A model generated the notes under the pieces. The model was not told the DNA's origin and searched no databases. It was given only the letters and a program-made list of their open reading frames with translations. From a bacterium (GTDB lineage Bacteria; Planctomycetota; Planctomycetia; Planctomycetales; Planctomycetaceae), in NCBI GenBank assembly GCA_016125225.1, contig WGME01000013.1:434001-498000 (forward strand): DNA of 64,000 nt, in the 5' to 3' direction. Positions 41,647 through 64,000 of this stretch are shown in pieces (within the stretch, counting starts at the first letter, position 1; the number at the start of each line of letters is the position of its first letter). Position numbers and translations under genes: made by a program.

Positions 41647-42399
41647 TTACACACAGATATTGTGCCCCAAGCGGAACGCGACCTGGCTGGCATCGAGAGG
41701 CTTGCAGAACCAACCTTCGATTTGCTGTTGATCGATATCGATGTCGCAGTTTGATTGAGACATGCCACTGACGACGAAGACTTTCAGCTTTTCGAACGTT
41801 GGCTGAGCACGGATGTGCCTCAGAAGTTCACTGCCGTCACAGCGCGGCATCCGCAGGTCGAGCAGAAGGAATTCCGGGACGGGTTCATTTTCCAAATGGC
41901 TCATCGCATCGAACCCATCCACTGCCGTGGAGACCATCCAGCCTTCCGCTCGTAGACACTCGGCGAGCAGTTCCCGCTCATCTCGATCGTCTTCCACGAC
42001 CAGGACGCGACGGCTGTTTTTCGGCTCGATGCTGAACCTGGATTTGTCAGCAAGTTCGTTATCTTGCTCTTCCATCTGAAAGGAGCGAAGTCGTTCTTGC
42101 AGTCGCACTAATGTGGCTTCGCAGGCTTCTTTGCGGCCTGCCAGGAGATGCTTCTGCGCCAACTGTACGGCGAGTTGCATGGCACTGAGCCGGTTCCGCA
42201 GTGCATGTGATACGTCAGATCGCGAATGGAAATCTTTGATGTCGACAGGGATTTCAATTTCCTGCCGCAGCACTTTGAGATGGGGTGGAGCCACGATGCC
42301 CAGTCGCACACGCTTTCCCTGCACTTCCACCACTTCCACGGAAACATTGATCTCGGGCAGGACAATCGACTCCTTGGGTCGTCGGCTCAAGATGAGCAT
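41647..42399 (-). CDS. CsrA-receiver fusion protein (RNA-binding response regulator)
   Basis: An unusual fusion. I start at ATG 42399 (AAAGGAAA upstream); the frame extends to 42471. Residues 1-48 are a complete CsrA domain: MLILSRRPKESIVL, VRLGIVAPPHLKVLRQEI; Arg6 and Arg45 match the RNA-contacting Arg residues of E. coli CsrA. Residues ~55-115 form helices with SHALRNRLSAMQLA, similar to a histidine-kinase dimerisation helix (His65). Residues ~130-250 are a receiver domain with acidic pocket E136-D137-D138, phospho-acceptor D181 (FLLLDLRMP) and K233. Last gene of the signalling island. It probably couples phosphorylation to mRNA binding. Confidence 0.9.
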   Translation of the reverse strand: MLILSRRPKESIVLPEINVSVEVVEVQGKRVRLGIVAPPHLKVLRQEIEIPVDIKDFHSRSDVSHALRNRLSAMQLAVQLAQKHLLAGRKEACEATLVRLQERLRSFQMEEQDNELADKSRFSIEPKNSRRVLVVEDDRDERELLAECLRAEGWMVSTAVDGFDAMSHLENEPVPEFLLLDLRMPRCDGSELLRHIRAQPTFEKLKVFVVSGMSQSNCDIDIDQQQIEGWFCKPLDASQVAFRLGHNICV

Positions 42400-42583
42400 G
42401 GGTTTCCTTTCCCTAGGTTTCCAGATCGCTCCGGAGAGACCACCGTGGTCACCAAGCGATTTGGTGCACACTCTCTGAGTATGTGGTCACCCTTATAATC
42501 CTTAAAATCCAGAAATCAATAATCGCCTATGCTAATTTATCACCCCTGCAATGTAGGTTTTACCTCGCATTGCTGAGCGAGCC

Positions 42584-43704: not shown

Positions 43705-45306
43705 TTAGTCGGGTCTGCCGTGATTGTTTAAATCAGAGATATCAGTCTCGCTCTTCCAAAGTGGAAGCACGATTTGTGTCTTTGTTCCTTTTCCCAGCTC
43801 TGATTCGATTTCGATGGTGCCGTCATTGTCTTCAACAATCCCATAGGCAATGCTCAGTCCGAGCCCTGTTCCGCCTTCCTGCCGACGGGTTGTAAAGAAG
43901 GGGTCGAACAGATGCTGACGCTGCTCATCTGTCAAACCAGGGCCGTTATCAGCAATCGTGATTTCAACGTCCTGCCCCATGCAGCGTGTTGAAACCTTGA
44001 CGGTGATATTGTCCCCTGCCTGAACAGAGTTCTGGATGATATTGAGGATGGTGAGCTGGATCTCCAATTCGTTTGCAAACATCGGTGGAAGCTGCTCTTC
44101 CAGATGCAGATCGATGGTGGCTCCGCGTCGCTCACTGGTTGCATTCACCAGGTCGCGGCATTGCCGGACGATGCGATTGACATCACACAAGGCTCGGTCG
44201 CAGTCGGACTGCTGTGAAAACCTGAGTGTATTGCGAATGATCTGCCCGCACCGTTCCATACCCAACACAATGTTGTCGAGCGCCTGGCGGACAATCGGAG
44301 AGATGCCTTTTTCAGGCAGCAGGGTAATCGCCGTTTCAGCCGCAAGCAGGGCTGCTCCGACGGGATTGTTGATTTCATGGGCCACACCAGCGGCCAATGT
44401 ACCGATCGCCACCATGCGTTCGTGACGGCGTGAAGCTTCCTGGGCTTTGCGGAGAGATGTGATGTTTTCAAACATGACGATGCCGATCGTCTCGCCTGAT
44501 TCGCGCGAATGGGCGCGACTCATGGTGATCCGTGAGATGACCACATGACCGTCTTTCGTCAGCAACCTCGCTTCGAAAGCGTGCTGTAAGATGTTCCCGG
44601 CAAAGAGTGCCTCGAACAGTTCCTGATTGGCGTTCGCATCATCAATGTGCATGATGTCGGTCAAACGGCAGCGAACGAGTTCCGATGTGGAATACCTCAA
44701 CATTTCCTGCAGGCCGTAGTTGACGTTCAAAAGCCGCATATCGGCATCGACGATTGCCTTGCCCAACGGACCATGTTCGAAGGCCAGCCGAAAGCGTTCT
44801 TCGCTGTCAATCAGTTCGGCTTCAGTCCGTTTGCGCCCGGTCGTTTCACGCTTCAGGTCAACCAGCGTCGCCCGCAGTTCCTCTGTTCTCTGGGAAACAC
44901 GGTCTTGAAGGAGTTGTTTGGCCTTTCTCAGCTCCTCTTTGGTATGAATGTGCTCGGTGATATCACGGATGGATAAAAGCTGGCACTTCTTGCGATTCCA
45001 GTTGACCGTCGAGGCCCTTAGTTCCGCCACCCTGCGCGTTCCCTGGGAACCAAGAATCTCAACCTCCGCGCCTCGGGAACTCACCGATGCAATCCCGAAG
45101 AAGCTGCCTAACAGCCCACCAGCCCTGACCCCATAGAGTTGTTCCGCCGCGGGATTGTGGAAGCGGACGATACCATCGCTATCGACGATGACGATCCCGT
45201 CGGCGAGGTCGCGAACCACAGCCTCGAATTGCGCACGAGTGGCCTCCATGTCTTCGGAAGACATCTGGAACATCGATGAGCGGCTGGAAGCAGCGTCGGA
45301 AATCAT
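43705..45306 (-). CDS. Soluble PAS-PAS sensor histidine kinase
   Basis: A 533-residue cytoplasmic kinase without membrane segments. PAS1 at residues ~25-115 (DGIVIVDSDGIVRFHNPAAE), a coiled coil ~120-165, PAS2 at ~168-290 (LNVNYGLQEMLRY), then HisKA with H310 in GVAHEINNP and HATPase with NIIQNSVQAG, ADNGPGL and GGTGLGLSIAYGIV. The HEINNP box places it in the NtrB-like/HPK4 class. 50 nt downstream of kaiC and directly upstream of the two response regulators; a candidate reader of the Kai module, although it has no KaiB-like sensor domain as in SasA. Confidence 0.93.
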   Translation of the reverse strand: MISDAASSRSSMFQMSSEDMEATRAQFEAVVRDLADGIVIVDSDGIVRFHNPAAEQLYGVRAGGLLGSFFGIASVSSRGAEVEILGSQGTRRVAELRASTVNWNRKKCQLLSIRDITEHIHTKEELRKAKQLLQDRVSQRTEELRATLVDLKRETTGRKRTEAELIDSEERFRLAFEHGPLGKAIVDADMRLLNVNYGLQEMLRYSTSELVRCRLTDIMHIDDANANQELFEALFAGNILQHAFEARLLTKDGHVVISRITMSRAHSRESGETIGIVMFENITSLRKAQEASRRHERMVAIGTLAAGVAHEINNPVGAALLAAETAITLLPEKGISPIVRQALDNIVLGMERCGQIIRNTLRFSQQSDCDRALCDVNRIVRQCRDLVNATSERRGATIDLHLEEQLPPMFANELEIQLTILNIIQNSVQAGDNITVKVSTRCMGQDVEITIADNGPGLTDEQRQHLFDPFFTTRRQEGGTGLGLSIAYGIVEDNDGTIEIESELGKGTKTQIVLPLWKSETDISDLNNHGRPD

Positions 45307-45356: not shown

Positions 45357-46877
45357 TTACTCTTTGGTATCGAACATCGTTCCAATCCGTTTAATATCGT
45401 CGGGGACGAGTTGCACGGGTGTTCCCGCGAGGATTCCGCCGACATTGCGGAACGGCTTGCCAATATGCATGCCGGTATGGTCGATGGTGAATTCACGAAT
45501 GTCTTTATCGTGCATCGACCCCCGCATCTTCAGGACCGTCAGTCCACGTCGCATCTCGCCGAACATTTCGACATACCGCAGCAGGATGATGGAATCGGTA
45601 ATCGTCGAGATGTGGGCCTCGGTAATCGATGTTCCCCCCATGAGTGAAGAGGTTGTCGATGTGAAGAGGCCCGCTACTTCCAGATGCTTGATGCAGGACG
45701 TCAGCCCAATGACAAATTCCCGGAATCCCTTGAGCGATGACACGCGTTCCAAGGCCGACAGGCTGTCGACAGCGATGCGGTTCGGGCGGAACTCATCGAT
45801 GATCCGCTGCATGCGCACCAGATGATCTTCGACGCTGGCCACTTCTGGGTACTGGCAGACCACACGCAGCTTGCCTTCGCGCTCCATCTGGTCGAAGTCA
45901 ATGCCCCAACCCAAGGCATTCCGCATCAATTGTTCGCGACTTTCTTCAAAAGCGAACAACAGAGACCGTTCTCCACGAGCGGCACCGCCGGCGATGAAGT
46001 GGGTGACCGTCAGTGTCTTGCCGGTCCCCGTGGCTCCGGAGACAAGCAAAATGGAATCACGGAAGAAACCCCCACCGCACATCTTGTCGAGTTCCGCAAT
46101 GCCGGAACTCGTGCGTACATTCGAGGAATGCTGCTTCAGTTCGATGCCCGACAATGGCAGCCCGAAAATTCCCGACCCTGGCAGAATCGTGAAGGGATAT
46201 TCGCCCTTCTGATGAGACGTGCCGCGGAATTTCAGGATTTCCATCGTGCGACGACGCTTTTCTTCGTCGAGCACATTTCGCAGGGTGATCACGTTGTCGG
46301 CGACGAATTCCTCGATACCGTGACGCGAGATTTCGCCGTACTCTGATGAACGTTCCGCCGTTAAGATCGAGGTGACCCCCATTTCACGCAGGCAGCAGGC
46401 AATTCGAAACAGCTCGCGGCGGACGGTTGCGGAGTCGTGCAACTGATTGAAGACGGCACCCAGTGAGTCGAGCGAGACACGCTTGGCGTTAACTTTGCGG
46501 ACGGCGTGTTCGATGCGGACGAGCAAGGCCCCTAAGTCGTAGGAACCGGAGTTGGTGGTATCACGACCAGGTTCCGGCGTGCCATCCACAAACTGCCATT
46601 GGCCATTCTGCTCCCATTCCGCAATATCCCAATGGAATCCGAGCATGTTCTTCCGCATGTCGGCTGGAGCTTCTTCAAACGTCACGAAGACCCCGGCCTG
46701 ATTGTGCTTGAGAATGCCCTCGGCCAGAAACTGGCAGGCAAACACGGTTTTCGCACTGCCAGCGGTTCCCGCGACCAGCGTTGTGCGGTTTTCCGGTAGG
46801 CCGCCTTCGGAGATCAGATCAAATCCGGGGATTCCGGTTTCAAGTTTGACAATTTGTGGTTTGGTTGCGTAAGTCAT
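45357..46877 (-). CDS. kaiC: KaiC-family circadian-clock ATPase
   Basis: A 506-residue double RecA-like ATPase. CI: Walker A GTAGSAKT (37-44) and catalytic Glu pair in FVTFEEAP (68-69). CII: Walker A GATGTGKT (281-288), Glu pair in LFAFEESRE (311-312). The autophosphorylation dyad is conserved: S424-T425 in AHISTITDS, with T419 matching Thr426 of S. elongatus. The C-terminal tail after the KaiA-binding loop region is ~13 residues shorter than in S. elongatus (519). AAGGTC precedes the ATG, which overlaps the kaiB stop (ATGA). Predicted autokinase/autophosphatase; oscillation cannot be read from sequence. Confidence 0.95.
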   Translation of the reverse strand: MTYATKPQIVKLETGIPGFDLISEGGLPENRTTLVAGTAGSAKTVFACQFLAEGILKHNQAGVFVTFEEAPADMRKNMLGFHWDIAEWEQNGQWQFVDGTPEPGRDTTNSGSYDLGALLVRIEHAVRKVNAKRVSLDSLGAVFNQLHDSATVRRELFRIACCLREMGVTSILTAERSSEYGEISRHGIEEFVADNVITLRNVLDEEKRRRTMEILKFRGTSHQKGEYPFTILPGSGIFGLPLSGIELKQHSSNVRTSSGIAELDKMCGGGFFRDSILLVSGATGTGKTLTVTHFIAGGAARGERSLLFAFEESREQLMRNALGWGIDFDQMEREGKLRVVCQYPEVASVEDHLVRMQRIIDEFRPNRIAVDSLSALERVSSLKGFREFVIGLTSCIKHLEVAGLFTSTTSSLMGGTSITEAHISTITDSIILLRYVEMFGEMRRGLTVLKMRGSMHDKDIREFTIDHTGMHIGKPFRNVGGILAGTPVQLVPDDIKRIGTMFDTKE

Positions 46878-47179
46878 GATTGACCTTCCGTTCCTGCGGC
46901 AAACGAACTTCCGTACAAATCCAATCCTGCCAGCAGTTGTTCACGATTTGACAAGTCGCCAATGATCCGGCGAGTCGGGGCGGGATAGATCTTGATCAAT
47001 GTCGGAGTCTGCAGAATCTTTTCGATTTCCGCGATTTCCGGGTCTTCCAGCAAATCGATGATCTCCAATTCATAACGGCCTGCGAGATAGGTCTCGCAGA
47101 CTTCACTGAGGTTCTGAATCGCGGCTTGAGACCGTGCTGTTTTGCCCGTGATAAAGAGTCTGAGCATGTGGGTTTCCAT
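46874..47179 (-). CDS. kaiB: KaiB-family protein
   Basis: A 101-residue thioredoxin-like fold-switching protein: LRLFITGKTARSQAAIQNL, then YELEIIDLLEDPEIAE, ILQTPTLIKIYPAPTRRIIG and DLSNREQLLAGLDL. These match the canonical KaiB core closely, including the PTLI-x-PxPxRRIIGDLS segment. Size is normal. AAGGAG lies 9 nt before the ATG. Its start overlaps the upstream KaiA-like stop by one base (TAATG) and its stop overlaps kaiC by four, so all three should be made in fixed proportion. Role: binding KaiC during the dephosphorylation phase, by family knowledge. Confidence 0.95.
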   Translation of the reverse strand: METHMLRLFITGKTARSQAAIQNLSEVCETYLAGRYELEIIDLLEDPEIAEIEKILQTPTLIKIYPAPTRRIIGDLSNREQLLAGLDLYGSSFAAGTEGQS

Positions 47180-48027
47180 TATTCATGCTCCTTGTGGTTC
47201 GTGGCAGACCGTCTCAGCGCGTAGGTGCGATAATAGGACGCGAGAAAGCCCATCAGTTCGAGGACCATCAAGCGGCCTTCGTCTGCCATCACTTGTGCGC
47301 GCTGCGGCAGTACATGGCTGACAAGCCTTCTCAGGGCTTCGGTATGAATCGACACCACATCGCGAGGTGTTGCGAACAGAAATCCCAGTCGTTCCGCCAG
47401 CTTCTGCAACTCGTGCGAGAGATCTGACTCGATGCGGTAAGCAACCTGTTCCAGTGCGGCTTCCAGCAAGCGGGTGTACTGCCCGACAAGCTGGTCGAAA
47501 GCCTCGGGACGTTCCTTGCTCAACGGCCCCTGACCGAAAGCGACCGCCGAAACCGGTGTCGTTCCCGGGGAAGCCATGTCGCGCAGCCGGCGAAGATCAT
47601 GCTCGTATCGAGCACTCCGCTCCGCTTCGTGACGCAGCAACTGGTAGCGTTCGAGTGCATACTTCACAGCACGTCGCAATGTGTCTCTCGTGAATCCCCC
47701 TTTGATCAAGTAGTCATGAGCCCCATGCTTGAGACTATCCATGCCTGTCTGCTCATCGTTTACCAGGACAATGACTGGTAAGCCTTCACGGCTCGAAACA
47801 TGAATCCGCTCCAGGAGATCGATCGCAGTGCGTTGTTCGAAGCTGGATGTCAGATTGAGTAAGACCAGAGCAATTCCCCCTCGCCCCAGACGACGGAGCG
47901 CCTCACCAATCTCAGACACGCTTTCGACTTCGTAGTTTGCATCCCGATTTCCTGAAAGAAACTCACGGATTTGTTGCACGTCTCGGTCAGATCCATCAAC
48001 AGCGAGAACGAACGACGTCTCCCCCAT
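47179..48027 (-). CDS. Pseudo-receiver protein with KaiA/RsbU-like C-terminal domain (KaiA-like candidate)
   Basis: Open from TTG 48099; I prefer ATG 48027 (GGGAG upstream), giving 282 residues, close to S. elongatus KaiA (284). Residues ~1-130 form a receiver fold (FVLAVDGSDRD, LPVIVLVND, DYLIKGG) in which the phospho-acceptor Asp is Asn58 (LVLLNLTSS): a pseudo-receiver, as KaiA has. The last ~95 residues are helical and resemble the KaiA C-terminal/RsbU N-terminal domain: LGFLFATPRDVVSIHTEALR and RLMVLELMGFLASYYR compare with VVEIHMELMDEF and RLTLIDVIAHLCEMYRR of KaiA. A role as KaiC activator is inference; an RsbU-like partner-switch role is the alternative. Confidence 0.72.
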   Translation of the reverse strand: MGETSFVLAVDGSDRDVQQIREFLSGNRDANYEVESVSEIGEALRRLGRGGIALVLLNLTSSFEQRTAIDLLERIHVSSREGLPVIVLVNDEQTGMDSLKHGAHDYLIKGGFTRDTLRRAVKYALERYQLLRHEAERSARYEHDLRRLRDMASPGTTPVSAVAFGQGPLSKERPEAFDQLVGQYTRLLEAALEQVAYRIESDLSHELQKLAERLGFLFATPRDVVSIHTEALRRLVSHVLPQRAQVMADEGRLMVLELMGFLASYYRTYALRRSATNHKEHE

Positions 48028-48136
48028 TCCTGCCACTCCCACCCAATAATGTCTTGAATTTTGTGCGGCTGGCCATTCTTTCCTTTGATTGAATGTCAAG
48101 CTGTCAGCCGCTGAGTAAACTCCTGATCCAGCTTCC

Positions 48137-51100
48137 TTAAGCAGGACTTAACGAAACATCTAAAGCTGCCATCAAGATCTCCGAATCGACGGGTTTCACC
48201 AGATGTGTGTTGAAGCCTGCCTCTTCAGCCTTGAAGCGATCCACGTCGCGGCCATAACCGGTCAATGCAATCAGTCGCACGCCGGAGCATGCTGGTTCCG
48301 ATCGCAACCGTTTTGCCAATTCGTAGCCGTTCAGCTTGGGTAAGCCGATATCGATCACGGCCACATCAGGTAACGACTCTTGAATGAGTTGCAGGCCCTC
48401 CATTCCATCTTTAGCCACCAGGACTTCATGACCATCAATCCCCAGCAATTCCCGCAGCATTTCGCGGTTGTCGAAGTTATCTTCAACTAGGACAATTCGC
48501 TTCCGAGACGAGACTCCTGCTGATGCTGCTGGAGCATGTTCCGGTTCTTCCTGGGGTTCCAACTCTTCCACGATGATGGCCGGAGCCATCGGCAACATGA
48601 CGTCAAACTCGCAGCCGCACCCAGGACCATCGCTGTGGGCAGAAATTCGTCCGCCGTGTAATTCCACGATCGCCTTGACCAGTGTCAGGCCCACACCCAA
48701 CCCCCCCTCAGAACGGTCGAGGCTGTGATCCGATTGCACGAAGAGATCGAAGACCGATTCCAGCATGCAGGGGGGCAACCCCACGCCGTTGTCTCGAACT
48801 TTGATCGCGATCTCGTCATCAACTTGATGAACGGAGAGCCAAACCTCACCGCCATCGGGGGTGTACTTCGCGGCATTGGAGAGCAGATTCACTTGAATCT
48901 GCTGAATTCGTGCCGCGTCGCCGGTGATTTTCAAAGGCACGGGTGACATGTCGATATGCAGCGTTGTTCCTTTGGCTTCGAAGAGATGGGACACGGCTGA
49001 GATTGCTTCCTGAGTGGCCTCCACCACATCGACGATCTCTTCCTGCATGAGGATTTTGCGTTGAGTCACTCGGGAGACATCCAGTAAATCATCCAGCAGC
49101 CGCGCCATGTGAGATGACTGACGATGCACCACTTTCAAGGCGTTTTCCGCCGTTTTATTGAGCGGTTGCCGCTGCATGAGAAACGCCGCATTGCGGATAC
49201 CAGCCAGTGGATTTCGCAGTTCGTGCGAGAGCATGGTCAGGAATCGATCGCGATGAATGACGGCTTCACGCGCTTCCAGTTCTTTCCGACGCAGCTCTTC
49301 TTCCACGCGTTTCAACGAGGAAATATCGACCAGCGTCAGAACCACACCGTCCACATGGGTTTCATGGCGATAGGGCAGAATTCGCAGCAGAAACCAGTTT
49401 CCCAACCGGTCACGCACGTCGGCTTCATGTATCGACCCCGTCTCTACCACACGTTCGATGTCATCCAGCAGGCTGGGATGATCGATCGTATTCGTAAAGT
49501 TATCGATGCGGCGTCCAAGATCCTGCGGCAGCAGGCTGAACATCTCTGCGATGGCCGGTGTAAATTTTCGAATCCGCAATCCCAGATCGAGAAAGATCGT
49601 GCCGATTTCTGTGCTGCGAATCAGGTTGTCCAGGTCGTCCGTCAGTTCCGTCAGTTCAGCGATTTTGCGTTGATGCTCGGCATTGACCGTGAACAATTCC
49701 TCGTTGACAGAATGTAACTCTTCGTTGGTACTTTGCAGTTCCTCGTTGGAAGCCACGAGTTCTTCGTTAGTGGCCTGCTGCTCTTCATTGCCCGATTCCA
49801 ACTCTTCGATGGTGGCTTGAAGCGCTTCCTTGGCGTAATTCAGCTCACTCTCCAAGGCCAACAAACGATCCCGTGAGACCTCCTGGCTGTCGAAGAGGCG
49901 CACCGGTGAAACGACTTCGCCACGGACTTCGACCGGTTCAAACACAATCAGAGAATGCGGGGTCTCCAACCCGGGATGAATCACCGGCCGTACCGTCACT
50001 CGAATGGTTTTCTTTCCATGGGCCGTGGTGACTTCGGTCGGGTTATACACAACAGGTGTGGGGTCTTCCGAGAGCCGGCTGAAAGCATTCGAAACAATGC
50101 TCCGCAGTTCATCTGGCATTTGATGCACAATGTCGTTCGACACCCGCCCGTTGCGAGTTACGAGGAATTCCCCCGCGTTGCCAAAGCAATGCACCAGGCA
50201 CAGGCGGTTGTCTACCAGCAGCGCCGGTGGCATGTAGTTGTCAAGCAACCAGTCATAGCTGGCCAGCAGCCGGCGATCGAACGATACTCCCGAAGGCAAG
50301 GCGAGATTGCGGCGACGCCCACTCTTCGACTCCGGATCAACCAGAAACGATGTCGGTAGACCGTTCGGCCGGGCTGTTCGAGATTTCCGGAAGATCCGAT
50401 GGCGTTCGTCGACAATGCTGAATTCATCGCCTGAGGATTCACTGTTGCCGAGCAACAGGTAACCGTCGGTTTTGAGACCGAAATTGAATAGGGACAGTGC
50501 CTTTTGTTGCGCCGATGGACGCAGATAAATCAGCACATTGCGGCAGGACACCAGGTCCAATCGCGTAAAGGGTGCATCGCGAATGACATTATGATGCGCG
50601 AAAATGATCATCTGCCGCAGATCTTGCGAAATGCGGTAACCATCTCGCCGGCGCGTAAAGTAACGCCGAATACGCTCTGGTGAAACATTGACCAGCCGCG
50701 ATTCGTCGTAGATGCCCGCGCTGGCAATATCAAGCGAGGCCCGATGCACGTCGGAAGCAAAGATCTTAACCGGTTGCGGACGCCCCAATCGCTCGATTTG
50801 TTCACTCAGTAGCATCGCGAGAGAGTAGGGCTCTTCGCCCGTGGCACACCCCGCGACCCACAGCCGACATTCATCGTTCGGCGACAACCGTTCCAGGATC
50901 TTCGGCAGGATGTCGTTCTCCAGCCGTGCGAAGACTTCCTGGTCACGGAAAAACTGCGTCACACCAATCAGAAGATCCTTGTAGATGGAATCCAGCTCTT
51001 CGGGGTTCTCGCTGATTCGTTCCACATAGCGATCGAGACTGGAGAGCCGACACAATTGCTGACGGCGCTCGATCCGCCGCAAAACGGTCTGGGGTTTGTA

Positions 51101-51871
51101 GTCGGAAAAGTCGATGCCATAGGAAGCCTTCAAGAGCCGCACAATGGTTTCGATGGCTGTGCGGCCGGTTTGCGGTTCGATCACCGAAGGATCTTCTTTT
51201 TGCAGCAAGCTGTTCGCACGCCGCTGCAGCGCCGCGGGGATGTCTTCCGGTGAAGCCACCAGGTCGACGATGCCCGTTTCATTCGCACGGGTGGGCATGC
51301 CGTCAAATTGAGCTGTATTGGGTTGCTGGACGATGACCATTCCGCCCGCCCGATGGATATCGACAATACCCCGCGAGCCATCACTCCCGGTCCCGGAAAG
51401 AATCACGGCAACGGCGCGTGATCCGGCATCCTGGGCGAGAGAGCGGAAGAAACGATCGATCGGCAACGAGAGTTCACTTCCCCGGTCTTTATCCGTCAGC
51501 AGCAGGCATTGCTGAGAAATGATCATTTCGGTGCCCGCGGGCATCAGGTAGACATGGTCTGCCTCAACCTTTGTGCCGTTCTCCGCGAGGCACACGGGAA
51601 TTCGAGTCCGACGACCGAGCAACTCGTCCATCAGGCTCTTGTAGTCTGGAGACAAGTGCTGAATGACGACAAACGCGATTCCCGAATTCACGGGCATCCG
51701 GTCGAAAAGCCGTTCGAGTGCGACCAGTCCCCCGGCAGAAGCACCGATACCAACAATGCATAATTCACTATCGGAAGCAGGTTCGCTCAAGCACTCCAGA
51801 GAATCGTCGGCCGAGAGATGATCGAGTCCTGTCGATTCCTGTTCGCTGTCGGACTCCGGTGTGTCAAACAC
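48137..51871 (-). CDS. CheB-CheR-PAS-histidine kinase-receiver hybrid
   Basis: A ~1240-residue multidomain signalling protein. The frame opens at TTG 51943 without a ribosome-binding site; GTG 51871 has AAGGA 7 nt upstream, so I prefer it. Domains in order: CheB methylesterase (GIGASAGG Ser, VIQHLSP His, [11 protein letters not shown] Asp); CheR methyltransferase ([25 protein letters not shown]); a long coiled coil of E-E-L-x-x-x-N-E-E repeats; PAS; HisKA ([12 protein letters not shown]); HATPase; receiver with Asp in [13 protein letters not shown]. No chemoreceptors, CheA or CheW occur in the window. It precedes the KaiA-like gene by 109 nt. Confidence 0.93.
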
Positions 51872-52213
51872 GGTGACGTCCTTGTATCTGCAAATCGCAG
51901 GTGATTTGGTCTTTTCTGATCTCGTTGTGAGAACCAAATCCAACCAATGTCAATGATGTCGACAGGCAGCCATTTCTCCTAGTTGTGTAATGCACATTCG
52001 AGACCAATCGCGGGGCATCCAGCATGCGGGATTCCCCGCGCATAACTACTGGAGTGATACAAGCGACAGATCAAGCCACCACGGAAGCCGCGAGGGAATT
52101 ACCGCATGACGCTTCAGACCGTTGCGAGTGTGCTGGTCAGGCAATCTCGATAGAAGCACGCTCAATGAGTGAATTGAGGTGCGCGAGAGGAGATGTCAGT
52201 CGAACGCAAGCGA
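51872..52213. other. Intergenic region between hybrid kinase and REC-PAS-LuxR genes
   Basis: About 340 bases including the unsupported 5' extension of the hybrid-kinase frame. No ORF, hairpin or clear promoter element seen; short plus-strand frames have no support. Confidence 0.4.
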
Positions 52214-61291: not shown

Positions 61292-64000
61292 ATGCTGCGA
61301 AAGTCTTGGTTACCTCGTTGCCTTCAATTCGCTTTCTTTGCCGGTCGGTCGCGACGTCTGCGCTGCAAGACCTCTGGACTGATTCAAACCTGCGAATCAC
61401 GACTGCTGCTGTCGGCGTCACCGGCGGGGTCCGAGTTTCAGGTCAACACGTACACCACTGGCGTTCAACAGCTGTCCGGGTTTACCACGCAGGCCGTGGT
61501 ATCTGATGCGGACGGAGACTTTGTCGTCACCTGGTCGAGCAACGCCCAGGACGGCAGCCTCTACGGCATCTTCGCGCAGCGGTACAACGCGGCGGGGGTG
61601 GCTCAAGGGAGTGAGTTCCAGGTCAACACCTACACCACCGACAACCAGCGGTTCGCTGCGGTGGCAATGGACGCGGACGGAGACTTTGTCGTCACTTGGA
61701 CGAGCTACGGCCAGGACGGGAGCAACGGCGGTATTTTTGCGCAGCGGTACAACGCGGCGGGGGTGGCTCAGGGGAGTGAGTTCCAGGTCAACACCTACAC
61801 TACCGGCAACCAGCAGTACTCCACGGTAGCGATGGACGCGGATGGGGACTTCGTCGTCACTTGGACGAGCAGCGGCCAAGACGGTAGCAGCGGCGGTATC
61901 TTTGCGCAGCGGTACAACGCGGCGGGAGTAGCGCAGGGGAGCGAGTTCCAGGTCAACACTTACACCACCAGCAGCCAGGGTAGTTCCACAGTGGCGATGG
62001 ATGCCGACGGTGACTTTGTCATCACTTGGACGAGCCTTGGCCAAGACGGCAGCGGATATGGCGTTTTCGCCCAGCGGTACAACACGGCGGGAGTGGCCCA
62101 AGGGAGCGAATTCCAGGTCAACACCAGCACCCTCAACCAACAACGGTATTCCTCGGTGGCGATGGACGCGGACGGGGATTTTGTCGTCACCTGGTCGAGC
62201 CTTAACCAAGACGGCAGCAACTACGGTATCTTCGCGCAGCGGTACAACGCGGCGGGAGTAGCGCAAGGGAGCGAATTCCAGGTTAACACCTACACCACCA
62301 ACTCGCAGACTCTCTCCAGGGTGGCGATGGACGCGGATGGGGACTTCGTCATCACTTGGATGAGCAGCGGCCAGGACGGTAGCAACTACGGCATCTTCGC
62401 CCAGCAGTACAGCGCCGCTGGCGTTGCTCAGGGGAGCGAGTTCCGAGTCAACACTTACACCACCAGCAACCAACTGGCCTCTGCCGTGACCATGGATGCC
62501 GACGGGGACTTTGTCGTCATCTGGATGAGCTTCGGCCAGGACGGCGACACCAACGGTATCTTCGCCCAGCGGTATGACGAATCAACCGACACCGCCGGGC
62601 CGACGGTGACAGACTTGCTGGTAGATGGCAACCACGTCGCGGAGAACGCCCAGTTGCTGGAAGGCCCGACGACGATGACTGTCGTCTTCTCGGAGAATCT
62701 CGCTACGACAGGCTCGGGCAGCGTGATCGACACCTCGAATTGGTCCGTCTTGCGCAACGGCGTCGAACAGCCCGGCCGGATTAACAACATTTCGTTCAAT
62801 TTCAACATGGCGACCAACAAGTACGAAGCCATCGTCACGTTCGCCACCGAACCTCTCGCCGTGGGGACTTACCAACTGGTGGCCAAAGAGACCATCACCG
62901 ATGTCGCCGGGAACATGCTCGACGGCGACCGCGATGGCACCCCCGGCAGCGACTTCACCCGGCAGTTCCGTGTGTCAGACATCGTGACCGCCGGGGGCGA
63001 GTTCCAGGTCAACACCTACACGACCCTTGGTCAACGGACGCAACTCGATTCACCGCGATCGGTGGCGATGGACGCGAACGGGAACTTTGTTGCCACCTGG
63101 ACGAGCTTTGGCCAGGACGGCGGCGTAGATGGCGTCTTCGCGCAGCGATATAACTCGGCGGGAGTAGCGCAGGGGAGCGAGTTCCAGGTCAACACTTACA
63201 CCACCAGCTCTCAGGGTAATTCCACAGTGGCGATGGATGCCGACGGAGACTTTGTCATCACTTGGACGAGCTTTGTCCAAGACGGCAACGGCTTCGGCGT
63301 CTTTGCGCAGCGCTACAACGCGGTGGGAGTCGCCCAAGGAAGTGAATTCCTGGTCAACACCTACACGACCGGCGACCAACGGAACTCGACGGTGGCGATG
63401 GATTCCGACGGAGATTTTGTCATTACCTGGACGAGCGAAGGCCAGGACGGCAGCGGCTACGGCATCTTCGCACAGCGTTACAATGCGGCGGGAGTCGCGC
63501 AGGGCAGTGAATTTCAGGTCAACACATATACAACAAGCGATCAACAGTTTGCTGCGGTGGCGATGGATTCCGATGGAGACTTTGTCATTACTTGGACGAG
63601 CTTTGGCCAGGATGGCAGCAGCAATGGAGTTTTCGCCCAGCGGTACACAATGGCAGGAGTGGCCCAAGGCAGCGAGTTCCAGGTCAACACCTACACCACC
63701 GAAACCCAATCGATCTCTACAGTGGCGATGAGCGAAAACGGGGACTTCGTTGTCACTTGGGAGAGCTATGACCAGGACGGCGACGGCTTTGGTATCTTTG
63801 CGCAGCGTTACAATGCGGCGGGAGTCGCGCAAGGCAGTGAATTTCAGGTCAACACAGATACAACAAGCGATCAACGGTTTGCTACGGTGGCGCTGGACGC
63901 GGACGGCGACTTCGTCGTTAGTTGGTCAAGCGATAGCCAAGACGGTAGCGGCTATGGCATCTTCGCGCGAAGGTATAATTCGGCGGGAGTGGTCCTGGGA
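61292..64000 (+). CDS. Giant secreted repeat protein, LEPR-SA type N-terminus (partial)
   Basis: Open with no stop from ATG 61292 to the window end (903 codons, gene continues). The first ~45 residues (MLRKSWLPRCLQFAFF, basic stretch, LIQTCESRLLLSAS) match the planctomycete leader with the 'LE.R.LLSA' box. Then come seven repeats of the type GSEFQVNTYTT...DADGDFVVTW...GQDGS..GIFAQRYN, an Ig-like domain (~430-565, DTAGPTVTDLLVDGNHV, VVFSENL), and six more repeats. Repeats may form beta-propeller blades. No catalytic residues are seen. Large antisense open frames over this stretch are shadows created by the repeats. Confidence 0.88.
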   Translation, partial: MLRKSWLPRCLQFAFFAGRSRRLRCKTSGLIQTCESRLLLSASPAGSEFQVNTYTTGVQQLSGFTTQAVVSDADGDFVVTWSSNAQDGSLYGIFAQRYNAAGVAQGSEFQVNTYTTDNQRFAAVAMDADGDFVVTWTSYGQDGSNGGIFAQRYNAAGVAQGSEFQVNTYTTGNQQYSTVAMDADGDFVVTWTSSGQDGSSGGIFAQRYNAAGVAQGSEFQVNTYTTSSQGSSTVAMDADGDFVITWTSLGQDGSGYGVFAQRYNTAGVAQGSEFQVNTSTLNQQRYSSVAMDADGDFVVTWSSLNQDGSNYGIFAQRYNAAGVAQGSEFQVNTYTTNSQTLSRVAMDADGDFVITWMSSGQDGSNYGIFAQQYSAAGVAQGSEFRVNTYTTSNQLASAVTMDADGDFVVIWMSFGQDGDTNGIFAQRYDESTDTAGPTVTDLLVDGNHVAENAQLLEGPTTMTVVFSENLATTGSGSVIDTSNWSVLRNGVEQPGRINNISFNFNMATNKYEAIVTFATEPLAVGTYQLVAKETITDVAGNMLDGDRDGTPGSDFTRQFRVSDIVTAGGEFQVNTYTTLGQRTQLDSPRSVAMDANGNFVATWTSFGQDGGVDGVFAQRYNSAGVAQGSEFQVNTYTTSSQGNSTVAMDADGDFVITWTSFVQDGNGFGVFAQRYNAVGVAQGSEFLVNTYTTGDQRNSTVAMDSDGDFVITWTSEGQDGSGYGIFAQRYNAAGVAQGSEFQVNTYTTSDQQFAAVAMDSDGDFVITWTSFGQDGSSNGVFAQRYTMAGVAQGSEFQVNTYTTETQSISTVAMSENGDFVVTWESYDQDGDGFGIFAQRYNAAGVAQGSEFQVNTDTTSDQRFATVALDADGDFVVSWSSDSQDGSGYGIFARRYNSAGVVLG
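61427..62578 (+). repeat. First tandem repeat block (7 units)
   Basis: Units begin (GSEF codons) at 61427, 61607, 61772, 61937, 62102, 62267 and 62432. The first is 180 nt, the rest exactly 165 nt (55 residues). DNA identity between units is high (for example the stretch GCGCAGCGGTACAACGCGGC recurs), so they are prone to recombination and slippage. Confidence 0.9.
62993..64000 (+). repeat. Second tandem repeat block (6 units in window)
   Basis: Units start at 62993, 63173, 63338, 63503, 63668 and 63833. As in the first block, the opening unit is 180 nt and the others 165 nt, so a whole block appears to have been duplicated around the Ig-like domain. The block continues beyond the window. Confidence 0.88.

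Follow-up and report, generated by a model that had tools for sequence, protein, structure and literature searches.

A kaiB-kaiC operon headed by a putative KaiA-like gene in an apparently planctomycete bacterium

The 64,000-nucleotide stretch of DNA analysed here (the window) carries three overlapping minus-strand genes encoding, in this order, a protein with a receiver-like N-terminal half and a putative KaiA-like C-terminal domain, KaiB, and KaiC. A first-pass annotation, made from the sequence letters without database searches, had described them as coupled; they are present where it placed them, and their TAATG and ATGA junctions are real. The features of the operon, in window coordinates, are:

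47179..48027, minus strand: KaiA-like gene, 282 amino acids from the ATG; the alternative TTG start at 48099 gives 306 amino acids
47665..48009, minus strand: pseudo-receiver domain, residues 7-121 (PF00072, E 5.4e-7; 30.2 bits, exactly the cut-off of 30.2), with Asn58 for Asp and Lys109 kept
47209..47502, minus strand: C-terminal helical domain, probably of the KaiA/RsbU superfamily, approximately residues 176-273 (hhalign to KaiA)
47177..47181, minus strand: TAATG stop/start overlap between the KaiA-like gene and kaiB (sequence)
46874..47179, minus strand: kaiB, 101 amino acids (PF07689, 91.1 bits versus a cut-off of 27; PDB KaiB 5jwq_B, E 3.4e-25)
46874..46877, minus strand: ATGA start/stop overlap between kaiB and kaiC (sequence)
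45357..46877, minus strand: kaiC, 506 amino acids, two ATPase domains, phosphorylation site HISTITD (TIGR02655; PDB KaiC matches; alignment)
45360..45452, minus strand: C-terminal tail of KaiC with GILAGTP...MF, to which the KaiA-like protein is presumed to bind (motif comparison)

The ATG of the first gene is preceded by GGGAG at 8 nucleotides, and the signal nearest to the TTG is AGGAG, 20 nucleotides away. The length of 282 amino acids, which the first-pass annotation had set against the 284 of cyanobacterial KaiA, holds from the ATG; as an argument the closeness is probably a coincidence, because the stop-to-stop open frames of the relatives that also precede kaiB-kaiC (see below) span 294 to 661 amino acids. 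The window KaiB, clearly recognised by its Pfam model, scores below the circadian NCBIfam cut-offs (TIGR02654, 90.6 versus 145.3 bits; NF006798, 95.5 versus 110). The window KaiC reaches 618.4 bits with the circ_KaiC model TIGR02655 (equivalog cut-off 546.25), the top PDB match covers residues 9-497 with 706 bits, and both residues of its phosphorylation site are kept in the alignment.

The kai gene trio is more than a chance arrangement, because the same gene order recurs in eight other genomes. A single-sequence search with residues 135-282 against 392 genomes of the window's phylum gave matches at E<=1e-3 in eight, the window genome included, and in the four best others (G152, G230, G214 and G055; E 1.9e-27 to 8.1e-14) the matching gene immediately precedes kaiB and kaiC. 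A six-member profile of planctomycete domains (A1), searched against 296 genomes of the phylum around a Paludibacter genome, found the domain immediately before kaiB-kaiC in G429 (5.8e-33) and G511 (4.3e-27). A profile of seven linked domains (A4) gave one match in each of two further samples: G838 (2.4e-26) among 217 genomes around a Myxococcales genome, and G1061 (1.4e-41) among 219 around an Opitutales genome. Both are followed by kaiB-kaiC, in G1061 after about 0.4 kb that holds no open frame of 40 amino acids on that strand. At E<=1e-25, nine of ten genomes, counting the window's own, have the domain in the gene before kaiB-kaiC (the exception is G148), and four of these nine (G429, G511, G838, G1061) lay outside the profile that found them.

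Weaker matches behaved differently. No kai genes were present in the 12.5-14 kb stretches fetched around G148 (1.2e-6), G383 (2.9e-5) and G303 (9.4e-4) from the first search, nor within 13 kb of the A1 matches in G479 (1.9e-15) and G675 (2.3e-13) from the Paludibacter-centred sample; the G303 match was discarded, as it looks like a chance frame. None of the weaker matches with inspected surroundings (G479, G675, G383, G303, G010, G167) is kai-linked. KaiC of the circ family was absent at E<=1e-40 from G148, G167, G675, G383 and G010, and the KaiC of G479 (361.5 bits) is below the circ_KaiC cut-off. Forty relatives of the window genome yielded only the window genome itself and a weak match in G010 (7e-4), and the gene therefore appears rare near the window's genus; G001 and G002 (64% complete), both of the same genus, are without the domain. 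A contig-collection scan with the window protein returned four loci, whose matches are confined to residues 28-135, the receiver part; in viral contigs, A1 picked up 28 pattern stretches but no relative; plasmids gave no match to the window domain and one weak match (E 0.7) to that of locus L018.

The domain tends to co-occur with circadian-type KaiC. A KaiC over the circ_KaiC cut-off was found in 5 of the 392 phylum genomes (G055, G230, G000, G025, G152). In the co-occurrence count, which covered 391 genomes (query genome excluded) and took the G214 KaiC, interrupted by a contig end, as circ-type, the domain at E<=1e-5 occurs in five genomes, circ-type KaiC in five and both in four (hypergeometric P 2.6e-8). 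Looser choices give P 1.8e-7 (seven KaiCs, adding G009 and G389) and P 1.3e-6 (seven domains and seven KaiCs).

Cyanobacterial KaiA acts by binding the C-terminal tail of KaiC (structures such as 1suy and 5c5e). All eight complete KaiCs encoded beside the domain end in GILxGxP followed after 12-18 residues by MF or LF, a motif first noted on linked KaiCs before G838 and G1061 were fetched and given its exact pattern after all tails had been seen. The motif is in none of the five compared KaiCs that have the same phosphorylation-site type and no accompanying domain (G025, G009, G389, a Sphingobium plasmid and an Aquisphaera plasmid). Excluded from the count were G214 (contig end), the Rhizobium locus L051 (frame ends early), and L060-L074, L093 and L094 (no matching phosphorylation site).

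A KaiC tree of 16 rows, built before G838 and G1061 were found, needs three label changes for the KaiCs linked to a KaiA-like gene, a number as low in 22 of 500 shuffles; 1% of the bootstrap trees need one. A single origin of these KaiCs is thus unsupported by this tree. Among 15 KaiCs compared, that of the window is most similar to the one of G429, from the Paludibacter-centred sample (70% identity), which together with the patchy distribution suggests lateral transfer of the kai set. Some KaiCs deviate in their motifs. The first-domain Walker A is GxxGSAKT, with Ala for the usual Gly before the Lys, in six of them (window, L018, L020, L075, L086, L087), and keeps the Gly in L017 and L019; the phosphorylation site is NIFTVTD in L017 and NISIITD in L020, each retaining one of the two residues.

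The nature of the C-terminal domain was analysed by profile-profile comparison (hhalign), as Pfam and NCBIfam gave no usable match for this part of the window protein. The main profile comprised the nine kai-linked domains, and the controls were 150 column shuffles plus 364 overlapping decoy segments of 108 amino acids from 36 of the window's own genes. It aligned with KaiA (S. elongatus, T. elongatus) at a score of 34.3 over 93 columns (P 2.5e-5), with RsbU at 26.8 over 61 columns (P 4.2e-4), and with another planctomycete receiver-plus-domain family at 79.0 (P 4.4e-13); no shuffle reached any of these scores, and the best decoy scored 21.0. KaiA also came ahead with the seven linked members (29.4 versus 25.0) and the ten members of A3 (28.1 versus 23.9), a comparison across sets in which the nine-member alignment was made with different MAFFT settings from the smaller ones. 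These comparisons give good support for placing the domain in the KaiA/RsbU superfamily, and a moderate preference for KaiA over RsbU that varies with the choice of members. The likeness to KaiA proposed in the first-pass annotation escapes the Pfam model PF07688 and appears as a remote match once profiles are compared; a match to RsbU-type domains only, the outcome that would have spoken against the proposal, did not occur, as KaiA aligns along the full domain and outscores RsbU when the profile includes linked members from other phyla.

The place of RsbU in these alignments raises the alternative that the domain is an RsbU-type partner-switch module, binding the kinase or phosphatase of a stress cascade, its adjacency to kaiBC being incidental or linking KaiC to stress signalling. 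The RsbU N-terminal domain does align beyond the controls, and with the six planctomycete members (A1) it scored above KaiA (27.4 versus 20.5); it was likewise ahead in the first PDB profile search, made with the same six members (E 0.14 versus 0.82), while the order was the reverse in the last of the four (KaiA 0.059, RsbU 1.1). KaiA was listed in all four PDB searches and RsbU in the first and last, and neither is taken as proof, because both rank below helical false positives. Moreover, a broader planctomycete family related to the kai-linked domains matches RsbU (P 7.7e-5) as well as KaiA (P 6.3e-6), and two of its members, in G383 and G010, are the only ones matched by the RsbU_N model. 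Against this alternative, RsbU_N matches no kai-linked gene tested. In a scan of eight genomes at E<=10, neither PF07688 nor RsbU_N (PF08673) matched the window gene or the related genes of G152, G230, G214, G055 and G148. The ten signalling neighbours scanned include no phosphatase 2C, STAS or RsbT-like protein, and the synteny with kaiB-kaiC recurs across the other genomes. We consider a stress-cascade role improbable.

The broader family (L022, L024, L034, L036-L047) consists of frames of about 300-380 amino acids with a degenerate receiver and a KaiA/RsbU-like domain; it is related to the kai-linked domain at P 2.4e-12, and the two stretches fetched (L022 and L024) contain no kai genes.

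Turning to the N-terminal half, the absence of the phospho-acceptor Asp reported in the first-pass annotation is borne out by the alignment: the position is Asn58 in the window protein and Asp in all five aligned relatives (three of them kai-linked). Five of the nine linked proteins have a receiver with the Asp (L017, L019, L020, L097, L098), and the window protein is the only one of the nine with an Asp-less receiver; L018 begins with Cache-HAMP-PAS (with a sub-threshold Cache match), and L086 and L087 have no Pfam match at E<=0.001 in this part and look PAS-like by eye. From this variety we infer that the proteins carry interchangeable input modules at the N-terminus (receiver, pseudo-receiver or Cache-HAMP-PAS). 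The L018 gene (L018:6323-9201) is a 661-amino-acid Cache-HAMP-PAS frame that ends in the KaiA-like domain and has one KaiB gene on each side.

The retained receivers also fit a second alternative, in which the KaiA-like protein does bind KaiC or KaiB, yet serves as an inhibitor or as an adaptor on the output side (a response regulator that the Kai proteins read out) and not as an activator. Kinases and receivers are encoded on both sides of the window operon (Pfam), and KaiA3, the closest described counterpart in layout, was itself originally catalogued as a response regulator, according to PMC11372060. The window protein, in contrast, has no phospho-acceptor and no DNA-binding or enzymatic domain recognised by Pfam, and the KaiC tail, the site contacted by KaiA in cyanobacteria, goes together with the gene; an adaptor role is accordingly rated as a minor possibility. 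A third proposal, that the gene is a degenerate relic whose activator function was lost along with its receiver, leaving KaiBC to work alone as in KaiA-less systems, could draw on the receiver score barely at the cut-off, on the two same-genus genomes lacking the domain and on the circ-type kaiBC of G025, which lacks it too. The open frame and its coupling are intact and the partner KaiC keeps its tail, and this proposal appears very improbable.

Taken together, we favour the reading that the three genes specify a Kai system of the KaiA3-KaiB3-KaiC3 kind, in which the KaiA-like protein would activate KaiC, and we give it a probability of about 0.72 on sequence evidence. The first-pass proposal of a KaiA/RsbU-superfamily domain serving a kai operon is supported by the profile-profile controls, by the synteny in the other genomes and by the matching KaiC tail. 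Several observations weigh against this reading, besides the better RsbU scores of the planctomycete-only profile: KaiA was never significant in the four PDB profile searches (best E 0.059), where unrelated helical proteins such as SHERP rank higher; PF07688 fails to match the window domain at E<=10; and single-sequence structure predictions were poor (mean predicted local distance difference test scores of 45.0 and 62.7), giving no usable model. The domain is also not strictly tied to KaiC, because it is present in genomes without circ-type KaiC (G148 and G675; the KaiC of G479 is below the cut-off). Conversely, G025 has circ-type kaiBC, preceded by a pilin-like open frame, without the domain, and its KaiC tail keeps part of the motif (GILSG), the exact form of which was, as said, fixed after inspection.

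In the favoured mechanism, the C-terminal domain would dimerise, grip the KaiC tail as KaiA does and pull it out, and the KaiA-like protein would thereby stimulate KaiC autophosphorylation; KaiB would then capture the activator on phosphorylated KaiC, so that phosphorylation falls and a timer or oscillator results. KaiC stimulation and rhythmicity are both predictions for the window system. The window pseudo-receiver, because it is without the phospho-acceptor Asp, may take its input by binding a ligand or partner, like cyanobacterial KaiA, rather than by phosphotransfer, and the neighbouring histidine kinases may carry input and output. A bolder version, which we regard as speculative and rather unlikely as a whole, is that a complete phosphorylation oscillator dependent on KaiA operates in a bacterium that is non-phototrophic and apparently a planctomycete. 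Its activator would have gained the pseudo-receiver plus KaiA-domain layout of cyanobacterial KaiA by an independent loss of the Asp, within a family that uses the KaiA domain as a portable module on different sensors (receiver, pseudo-receiver, Cache-HAMP-PAS), and one and the same Kai core would thus be set by different environments.

The genes adjoining the operon that would serve this signalling are:

43705..45306, minus strand: PAS-PAS histidine kinase, candidate output kinase, 50 bp downstream of kaiC (Pfam)
48137..51943, minus strand: CheB-CheR-PAS-histidine kinase-receiver hybrid, candidate input, 109 bp upstream of the KaiA-like gene (Pfam)

Hybrid histidine kinases also follow kaiC in loci L018 and L087. 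Elsewhere the window encodes DUF1559, DUF1501 and DUF1552 proteins, which are typical of planctomycetes and are the reason why the genome looks planctomycetal. In the protein encoded at 41647-42471 (minus strand), an N-terminal CsrA domain (PF02599) is fused to a receiver at the C-terminus (PF00072); such a union of an RNA-binding regulator and two-component signalling looks unusual. At 61418-63874 the minus strand has long open frames in which a VHRHR-type pattern repeats, probably out-of-frame readings of repeat-rich sequence.

It can be tested directly whether Kai clocks of three proteins work outside cyanobacteria, and the recurrence of the same gene order in a few other non-cyanobacterial genomes makes a KaiA-driven timer there testable. 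For phosphorylation assays in vitro, the linked sets supply trios of KaiA-like protein, KaiB and KaiC from lineages that lie far apart, and their swapped N-termini suggest how a single Kai core could be connected to different inputs. If the KaiA domain and the KaiC tail also go together in a larger set, their pairing would be a sequence rule predicting which KaiCs need an activator.

Among known systems, the nearest in layout is KaiA3 (Sll0485 of Synechocystis PCC 6803), for which Koebler et al. 2024 (PMC11372060) give a receiver at residues 1-140, a KaiA-like C-terminal domain at 141-299, and a gene upstream of kaiB and usually then kaiC; with KaiA3 and KaiB3, the phosphorylation of KaiC3 oscillates circadianly in vitro. 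Outside cyanobacteria, the same paper lists KaiA3 for five genera (Roseiflexus, Chloroflexus, Chloroherpeton, Rhodospirillum, Bradyrhizobium); it describes the receiver Asp of KaiA3 as conserved except in Pleurocapsa and Microcystis. Dvornyk & Mei 2021 (PMC8113500) mention a KaiA with a full kaiABC operon for Planctomycetaceae bacterium TMED241. In view of these two papers, the statement in the first-pass annotation that KaiA is usually said to be limited to cyanobacteria is outdated. Set against the published description, the window protein shares with KaiA3 the receiver, the KaiA-like C-terminal domain (remotely, and with RsbU matching too) and the position upstream of kaiB with kaiC; it differs in the missing phospho-acceptor Asp, Planctomycetota are not among the KaiA3 taxa listed in PMC11372060, and one linked planctomycete relative has a Cache-HAMP-PAS front.

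With S. elongatus KaiA (PF07688; PDB 1r8j, 4g86, 5c5e) the window protein has in common a pseudo-receiver plus C-terminal helical domain, the first place in the operon, a near-equal length and a KaiC partner with a C-terminal tail. It differs in sequence (17% identity in the profile alignment, no PF07688 match), in having a receiver that Pfam still recognises and in the kinases and receivers around its operon. The RsbU N-terminal domain (PF08673; PDB 1w53, 2j6y) belongs to the same superfamily by profile comparison, and the window protein differs from RsbU in lacking the phosphatase 2C domain and an RsbU_N match, in its kai operon context, and in an alignment weaker and shorter than that to KaiA with the nine-member profile. 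Aquisphaera giovannonii plasmid pOJF2_1 (L050) offers a coupled kaiB-kaiC in another planctomycete; there, a protein annotated as ATP-binding, which reads as a hybrid histidine kinase, occupies the place of kaiA, and the KaiC is without the tail motif. No published description of a planctomycete KaiA-like form with a degenerate receiver was found, judging by titles and abstract openings. Thus, the KaiA3-type layout outside cyanobacteria is known, and what is new is a member that has a degenerate receiver and comes from an apparent planctomycete, in a family with a swapped input domain.

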